Origin: a virus
Reading direction: 5' to 3' (one strand)
IMG/VR virus record: IMGVR_UViG_3300039106_000001
Location: 1-22,609 of that record
DNA: 22,609 bases
The stretch's first letter is position 1. Each line of letters opens with the position of its first letter. Of this stretch, positions 21,656 to 22,609 are shown one piece after another. A program made the translations under genes and the position numbers. The notes beneath the pieces were generated by a model that was not told the origin of the DNA, did not search any database, and saw only the letters and a program-made list of their open reading frames with translations.

Positions 21656-21684
21656 AATGTAACTCACTTTGTTTTGTTTGACAA
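21656..21684 (-). promoter_or_regulatory. Possible minus-strand promoter for the structural operon
   Basis: On the minus strand TTGTCA (21684-21679), 17 bases, TACATT (21661-21656). The -35 matches five of six and the -10 four of six consensus bases. It is the best candidate I see upstream of the terminase genes. Its -35 occupies the same bases as the -35 of the stronger plus-strand promoter. Confidence 0.3.
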
Positions 21685-21706
21685 GTGGGGTAAACCCTTA
21701 TATAAT
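21678..21706 (+). promoter_or_regulatory. Perfect-consensus sigma70 promoter
   Basis: TTGACA (21678-21683), a 17-base spacer, TATAAT (21701-21706): exact match to the bacterial housekeeping consensus with optimal spacing. The expected start is A21713 or adjacent. The spacer contains a short inverted repeat GGG-TAAA-CCC (21688-21697) that might be a binding site. It should be recognised by unmodified host polymerase, so it could be active early in infection or in a lysogen. It drives the structured RNA at 21713-21803. Confidence 0.8.
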
Positions 21707-21712
21707 CTCACC

Positions 21713-21803
21713 ATCTGTTCTAGCCAGATAAAGCCTTTTAGAAGTGGTACAGCCCTGGGGATACTCGGGGGCTAGACTGTATCACCCCTAAAGGGCTTTT
21801 TTT
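21713..21803 (+). ncRNA. Candidate small structured RNA ending in an intrinsic terminator
   Basis: About 90 nt from the predicted start to the T-tract. Hairpin 1: ATCTG (21713-21717) pairs with CAGAT (21725-21729), loop TTCTAGC. Hairpin 2 begins at the very next base: 21730-21741 pairs with 21788-21799 (12 bp including one G-U), a 2x2 internal loop, then GTGGTACAG (21744-21752) with CTGTATCAC (21777-21785; 9 bp with one G-U), enclosing a 24-base loop. TCTAGCC (21719-21725) in loop 1 is complementary over seven bases to GGCTAGA (21770-21776) in loop 2; six of these are loop bases, allowing a kissing interaction. Seven T follow. I recognise no known RNA class. It may be a free-standing RNA or a leader of the HNH gene. 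A 51-codon ORF covers the region but lacks a ribosome site. Confidence 0.6.
21730..21803 (+). terminator. Intrinsic terminator closing the small RNA
   Basis: The 12-bp outer stem AAAGCCTTTTAG / CTAAAGGGCTTT (one G-U) is followed by TTTTTTT (21797-21803, partly paired with the stem base). Its 3' arm is close to the tract as required for intrinsic termination. The next base is the A of the HNH start codon, so HNH expression would depend on read-through. Confidence 0.65.
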
Positions 21804-22265
21804 ATGGGCATTTATCTGTATAGCCAAAAGGCAGTTGACGCTTACAAAAAGAAGCGCAAGAAGGATGCTGAGAAAGCCAAGAAAACATTAGCAAAATTAG
21901 CAGAATCTAGTCCTGTCATTCAGGCTTTGATAAACAAGAAGGCTTCTCAAATAGCCTGGGCTATGCAAAAGAAGTCTGTCAAAAAGGCTCCCACATTTGA
22001 ACCGCCGCCTGCTTATGTGTTTGACATGGGAAAAGAGTTTTACAAGACAAGGGAATGGCGGGAAGTCAGGTACAAGGCTTTAGTCAAGTTCGGCAAGAAG
22101 TGTCAGGCTTGCGGGGAAACAAGTGGCTACATCCATGTGGATCACATTCTTCCCAGGTCAAAGCACCCAGAGAGGGAACTTGACATAAACAATTTGCAAG
22201 TGCTTTGTGAAGCGTGTAACATAGGCAAATCCAACACGGATACAACTGATTGGCGTGACAAGTAA
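21804..22265 (+). CDS. HNH endonuclease
   Basis: A 153-residue HNH nuclease and the only confident plus-strand gene. The N-terminal 60 residues are lysine-rich and helical (DAYKKKRKKDAEKAKKTLAK), probably for DNA binding. The nuclease domain spans about 79-145: FYKTREWREVRYKALVKFG, zinc ligands C100-x2-C103 and C135-x2-C138, catalytic H114 in VDHILPRSK, and N130 in NNLQVLC. All core residues are intact. The ATG directly follows the T-tract of the small-RNA terminator; AAAGGG (21790-21795), 8 bases before the ATG, is the only ribosome site and lies in the terminator stem. HNH proteins next to terminases take part in DNA cutting at packaging in some phages; others are free-standing homing nucleases. 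Either is possible. Confidence 0.88.
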   Translation: MGIYLYSQKAVDAYKKKRKKDAEKAKKTLAKLAESSPVIQALINKKASQIAWAMQKKSVKKAPTFEPPPAYVFDMGKEFYKTREWREVRYKALVKFGKKCQACGETSGYIHVDHILPRSKHPERELDINNLQVLCEACNIGKSNTDTTDWRDK

Positions 22266-22609
22266 AGGGATGTCGGGTGTGGCAGTCGCACCCTCAAAGG
22301 CATGAGATATTCGGTTGCCCAAGCAAATCCTCACCAGGAAGTAAGGGCGGTGGCTATAAAGCGGTACGCACTGTTTAACAGTAATACGACCTGATGTCCC
22401 ACAGAGTCTGCTTAACTCTGTACGCTATACGACACCCACCCTAGTCAAGGGATTCTCAAGACCATGAGAATTGCTACGACTGCCTTGCTACGCCTGTACA
22501 TTACCTCTCCCCTTCTTCCTTCCCAACAAAAGCTAGTCATTTTTGTAGGTAATCCTAATTTCACTTTTCCAGTGGATAGGAGGCTCCACAAAATCTCTCA
22601 CACCTCACC
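22266..22609. other. 344-base region without a convincing gene; clustered inverted repeats
   Basis: No credible long reading frame on either strand. Visible structure: GGGTG/CACCC (22275-22293), the palindrome-like ACTGTTTAACAGT (22370-22382), ACAGAGT/ACTCTGT with a 7-base loop (22401-22421), and ATTCTCA/TGAGAAT with a 6-base loop (22452-22471). GGGTGT at 22275-22280 can also pair with ACACCC at 22432-22437, which would enclose the first three repeats. No tRNA features, promoter with good spacing or T-tract terminator are seen. The last 100 bases are C/T-rich on the plus strand and show nothing recognisable. Confidence 0.4.

Follow-up and report, generated by a model that had tools for sequence, protein, structure and literature searches.

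The DNA at positions 21678-21803 of the window, a 22,609-base IMG/VR virus record whose terminase, portal, and capsid genes lie on the opposite strand, is one copy of a real, conserved phage RNA family that apparently has not been described. Many viral contigs from freshwater carry a member, as do at least two of the complete phage genomes that have been deposited. A search of Rfam 15 at the gathering score gave no match on the element in the window or at ten other loci, in agreement with a sequence-only reading of the window, which knew of no RNA family of this form. Matches at relaxed thresholds were limited to c4-2 (18.8 bits) and two unrelated weak ones, and were judged to be due to chance. 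GenBank phages gave no relatives in BLAST searches with the window region and subfamily B (see below), and weak ones with queries of the D and E types only. Among the titles and abstracts listed by searches of the open-access literature for phage RNAs that contain pseudoknots or kissing loops, none describes such an element.

Structure of the window element

The element starts with a sigma-70 promoter (21678-21706, + strand) matching the consensus at 12 of 12 positions, with TTGACA at 21678-21683, a 17-nt spacer, and TATAAT at 21701-21706. About 6 nt past the -10 box begins P1 (21713-21729), a hairpin of 5 bp formed by ATCTG (21713-21717) and CAGAT (21725-21729) around the loop TTCTAGC (21718-21724). 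The long hairpin that follows (21730-21799) consists of the terminator stem P2a (5' strand 21732-21741, 3' strand 21788-21797), the stem P2b (21744-21752 and 21777-21785) separated from P2a by an AA/CC internal loop, and the apical stem-loop P3 (21753-21770) with the loop GATA at 21760-21763. All of these parts lie on the + strand; P1, P3, both strands of P2b, and the 5' strand of P2a are supported by fold and covariation, and the 3' strand of P2a by sequence and covariation. Seven T residues at 21797-21803 (+) touch the ATG at 21804, which opens the downstream cistron, a 153-aa HNH endonuclease (21804-22265, + strand). The sole Shine-Dalgarno-like sequence in front of this gene, AAAGGG, lies within the 3' strand of P2a, 8 nt before the ATG.

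The minimum free energy of the window element was -41.5 kcal/mol (z = -4.55), and none of 200 dinucleotide shuffles equaled it. By sequence and fold, the stem and the seven-T run make up an intrinsic terminator; a simple terminator scanner omitted it, such long hairpins being outside its model. The promoter, P1, the long hairpin, and the T-run can all be read directly, which bears out the earlier description of promoter, RNA, and terminator as one unit. That description also proposed a complement between TCTAGCC and GGCTAGA, and both are present (21719-21725 and 21770-21776). Its placement of GGCTAGA in the apical loop of the second hairpin was mistaken, since the sequence corresponds to a 6-nt strand bulged between P3 and P2b. 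The two halves supported by covariation are UCUAGC in the P1 loop (21719-21724, + strand) and GCUAGA in the bulge (21771-21776, + strand).

Subfamilies, covariation, and genomic placement

Relatives were gathered via a TerL search and two DNA patterns. Of 84 distinct pattern matches, 79 fell into two subfamilies, A (52) and B (27); the matches L201, L202, and L204 were excluded as members, having no evident P1 or loop complement and an unrelated downstream context. Subfamily A, to which the window belongs, lies upstream of a TerS-like gene and divergent to it. In all A loci inspected an ATG follows the T-run after 0-2 nt, and the same place is occupied either by an HNH protein of about 150 aa or by a 74-aa basic protein, for which a family search gave no convincing match. 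Subfamily B occurs in a different set of phages, for the most part in early regions with Cro-like, Holliday-junction-nuclease-like, and replication-initiation genes nearby. Within a few nucleotides its T-run gives way to a noncoding stretch of about 250 nt, and at most B loci a covarying structured RNA begins there; at two loci a NUMOD4-type HNH gene has its ATG there instead. A start codon 0-2 nt past the T-run was found for three unrelated proteins (HNH, 74-aa, and NUMOD4-type HNH). The most conserved parts of the element are the terminator stem and the T-run, the latter being invariant in A and nearly invariant in B.

In A (29 sequences), 99.8% of cells pair, and the six pairs of the loop complement are formed in 29 of 29 sequences, five of them with changes on both sides. 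Both-side changes were also found in four of the five pairs of P1 and three of the five counted pairs of P3. The loop complement of B (25 sequences) is 100% paired, with both-side changes in five of seven pairs. Slid controls drop to 37%-49% of cells paired in A and 30%-57% in B. The complement first noticed in the window is therefore always paired in the homologues of both subfamilies, and compensatory changes, proposed beforehand as the check on the fold, are abundant in the helices and in the loop complement. Covariation extends over P1, P2, and P3 of both subfamilies. Conservation by codon position is not seen: the linkers and P3 show indels that are not multiples of three. Many of the one-sided changes in A convert G-C into G-U when viewed on the + strand, in keeping with an RNA read in that direction. 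In B a 4-bp hairpin, preserved through one compensatory change, presents the bulge strand as its loop, so that a true loop-loop kiss can form. The kissing sequences themselves are hypervariable; the loop haplotypes UCUAGC/GCUAGA, UCGCGU/ACGCGA, and UCGCGC/GCGCGA were found in otherwise near-identical RNAs, and 29 of 63 pairs of RNAs near-identical in P2 differ at no fewer than four kissing columns.

Further copies were located by a sequence-free scan for a terminator hairpin, an upstream hairpin, and the loop complement. Applied to 13 near-complete phage records and the window (0.96 Mb), it returned 18 matches, of which two look false and about 16 genuine, vs one match in block-shuffled sequence. 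A wider locus set contained 64 distinct A- or B-like matches and 17 others (about 10 look genuine) vs nine in shuffles, and single low-scoring matches in this set are distrusted because of the latter number. Covariance-model searches of 17 viral records likewise yielded additional copies. Two additional subfamilies, D and E, were revealed, with the same architecture and different P2a sequences; P2a varies among the subfamilies (for example, GCCTTTTAG, GCCCTAG, GGGTTACAC, and GCCACTTA), and the partner strand matches in each case. A second copy, of type D, is present in at least four B-type phages, on the same strand and about 3.6-3.9 kb from the B copy. These D copies have a promoter-like pair just upstream, and in most of them the ATG comes roughly 15-17 nt past the T-run. 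The T-run of D copies is followed by a ribosome-binding site of their own and, after about 9-17 nt, by an ATG; they stand ahead of replication-type genes. The structured RNA that follows E copies is a relative of the one found behind B. In addition to the A copy, the A-type phages L101, L119, and L200 each have one of type D or E, and both of these types are also represented in the deposited complete genomes MW202462 and MW202484. Copies within one genome differ in sequence.

The presence of a promoter just upstream of the element is well supported, strongly in A and more weakly in B. Promoter-like pairs match on average 10.0 of 12 positions in A (4.7 in shuffles) and 7.4 of 12 in B (4.8 in shuffles), where many single copies are no better than shuffles. 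Such pairs also precede A relatives with unrelated flanking sequence.

A candidate conditional terminator and its rivals

Four features point to cis action at the heads of operons: the position behind a promoter, the built-in terminator, the constant abutment on unrelated cistrons, and the presence of several copies per genome. A cis-acting leader had been among the candidates of the sequence-only reading, and promoter-proximal placement next to unrelated genes or structured RNAs favors it. At about even confidence, we consider the element to be a promoter-proximal leader with a conditional transcription terminator (attenuator) heading phage transcription units. Since the ATG or the next RNA lies only 0-17 nt past the T-run, there is no room for another promoter before the cistron, and downstream expression needs read-through unless a promoter is located inside the element. 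The default product would be a terminated RNA of about 95 nt. The course of folding during synthesis could be set by kissing or pseudoknot pairing, such that polymerase reads on in response to a signal, for which a phage or host factor and the elongation rate are candidates. The downstream genes or structured RNAs would be expressed solely in this way. The gated cassette of the window would comprise the HNH gene and the structured RNA behind it; translation of HNH may also be blocked when the stem forms, because the only Shine-Dalgarno-like sequence lies inside it. As relatives sit behind other promoters in many freshwater phages, the element probably serves the genes behind it as a built-in on/off gate.

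Folding predictions for B are consistent with an attenuator. An alternative fold, composed of an 11-bp loop:strand helix (the extended loop complement) and a linker:P2b hairpin, is the minimum free energy structure in 88%-100% of the 25 RNAs as long as the P2a 3' strand lacks its last bases; once these are added, all of the RNAs turn to the terminator. The B loop complement is thus predicted to form an antiterminator as well; the linker:P2b hairpin shows one-sided changes only. In A, including the window, the nested alternative fold is competitive only for a short time, so a switch in the window is proposed by extension from its relatives, and for A a tertiary kiss steadying the terminator is an equally open interpretation. 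Nested energy models do not score the pseudoknot itself. Geometry seems to strain a static kiss in the completed A RNA, where a P1-P2 linker of just 1-5 nt faces about 21 bp of P2. The hairpin might also be stable enough for constitutive termination.

Leader attenuators are the closest known systems in logic, and the put RNAs of phage HK022 are the closest in placement. Like the element, leader attenuators are located between a promoter and the first cistron and combine a pseudoknot with an intrinsic terminator, to which B adds the predicted competing antiterminator. Unlike riboswitch-type and other leader attenuators (e.g., the fluoride and ZMP riboswitches), the element has no evident ligand-binding core, its pseudoknot is hypervariable, and it recurs before unrelated cassettes.

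HK022 put is an RNA that binds the zinc-binding domain of beta' and suppresses terminators lying downstream of it. The HK022 genome contains two put RNAs of about 70 nt, each with two stem-loops, downstream of its two early promoters (PMC9378689). Similarly, the RNAs described here are short (about 95 nt), have two main hairpins, lie behind promoters, and occur more than once per genome, just as putL and putR head two transcription units. The nascent RNA might accordingly bind RNA polymerase and make it resist downstream pausing and termination, its own hairpin and T-run being the first site overcome. This explanation is rather unlikely, because put carries no terminator, while in the element the stem and T-run of its terminator are the best conserved features. 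In addition, put lacks kissing loops, and its tertiary feature is a minor-groove triplex, these comparisons being made by description.

There is a similarly modest chance that the element is a stand-alone phage sRNA ending at the T-run and acting in trans by structure or protein binding, with the adjoining cistrons being incidental. In favor of this are the promoter and terminator of its own, the stability of the RNA, and the start of its hairpin a few bases beyond the predicted transcription start. However, nearly all copies abut a cistron or another structured RNA, the copies of one genome differ in sequence, conserved unpaired stretches are absent, and the loop sequence does not recur elsewhere together with its haplotype. 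The absence of a conserved unpaired seed and of such recurrence weakens the free trans-acting regulator suggested by the sequence-only reading.

Somewhat less probable still is a translational gate, in which the stem hides the Shine-Dalgarno sequence of a (homing) endonuclease gene, as has been reported for T4 I-TevI and Aeh1 mobE. Structures hiding the ribosome-binding sites of homing endonuclease genes have been documented (PMC3014915), and the HNH and 74-aa cassettes share the relevant features: a Shine-Dalgarno sequence within a hairpin (AAAGGG in the window) and an ATG abutting the T-run, in the case of HNH also the type of gene. Unlike in the I-TevI and mobE leaders, the hairpin here is a terminator with its own promoter, and the element is present also without an endonuclease ORF; the stem is kept in most B, D, and E copies although no ORF abuts it, and a ribosome-binding site lies beyond the T-run in D copies. 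A leader specific to HNH genes was rejected as too narrow, since the element also precedes non-endonuclease genes and noncoding RNAs.

An extension of the attenuator model, which we regard as no more probable than the translational gate, is that the terminated leader, present at several promoters of a genome, pairs in trans with its own nascent copy once it has accumulated and tunes read-through. The elements would then be RNA self-counting devices, widespread RNA-only phage switches, and the hypervariable, always self-matching loops would give each unit a private specificity.

Very improbable is an immunity RNA of the P1 C4 or P4 CI type, whose variable loops would pair with a target in a transcript of the same specificity. 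As in the C4 antisense RNA clan (CL00128), the RNA is short, of phage origin, and close to a promoter, and close relatives differ mainly in the kissing pairs. However, the similarity of the second hairpin to c4-2 (18.8 bits) is well under the Rfam cut-off of 41 bits, and in the flanks examined no haplotype-matched second copy of the loop or of its complement, and hence no target copy, was found. A packaging RNA like phi29 pRNA with kissing between molecules is hardly credible. In its favor are the complementarity of loop and strand and the terminase genes next to the element in the window clade, on account of which a role in packaging had been suggested earlier. However, terminase association is confined to clade A, copies of the B, D, and E types have early and replication genes as neighbors (B near Cro-like, nuclease, and replication genes, D ahead of replication-type genes), and the window TerL matches ordinary large-terminase families.

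The architecture can serve as a descriptor, independent of sequence, for locating the heads of phage transcription units. Should the attenuator interpretation hold, these phages gate whole cassettes (homing-type endonucleases, replication genes, and structured RNAs) via a kissing-loop RNA, and the element is a natural, evolvable terminator switch that could be tested by simple reporters.

Neighboring RNAs and other features

Directly 3' of the window HNH gene lies a conserved structured RNA (22266-22499, + strand; GTCGGGTGTGGCAGTCGCACCC...GACTGCC). Among 18 phages, both-side changes retain pairing in 20 of its 50 predicted pairs, and its first hairpin contains GGCAGTCG, a complement of CGACTGCC at the 3' end. 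The 74-aa cassettes carry a different conserved structured RNA behind the gene (e.g., L012:1993-2204:- and L116:3890-4128:+), and the HNH or 74-aa gene swaps as a pair with its downstream RNA. The structured RNA of about 250 nt behind B (e.g., L155:1858-2119:- and L160:12268-12529:-) has both-side changes in 16 of 29 predicted pairs; in L145 and L167 it contains an extra insert of about 150 nt with long matching ends. In three viral contigs (L147:1785-1901:-, L177, and L184), the RNA directly 3' of the element was Betaproteobacteria-1 (RF02932), a separate RNA distinct from the element, which is a hint that Betaproteobacteria-1 travels with phages. Six matches to it in four Comamonas-order genomes had no evident copy of the element adjoining. 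Nor does Betaproteobacteria-1 accompany every copy of the element.

The promoter spacer of the window contains the inverted repeat GGGGTAAACCCT (21687-21698, + strand), which by its sequence looks like an operator. Among A relatives this repeat varies by clade (GGGGTAAACCCT, AGGGTAATCCCT, or AGAATCAGATTCT), and similar repeats occur downstream of the cassette in L007, L025, and L028. In L003 (4150-4700, - strand), the same promoter start leads into a noncoding stretch of about 300 nt from which the element is absent; the same arrangement was found in L004-L006, L016, L017, L021-L023, L026, and L029-L033.

A divergent copy (L203:2610-2717:-) was located on a plasmid-like contig of a Comamonas MAG. 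This contig also codes for a ParA-like protein and a possible replication-initiator protein; therefore, the element may occur on plasmids too. A search of 300 genomes of the same order with model R2 recovered L203 alone and no further copy. In MW202462.1 (L252:914-1010) and MW202484.1 (L254:1424-1516), the annotated hypothetical proteins UOF77143.1 and UOF77725.1 overlap the element, and these annotations are probably spurious.
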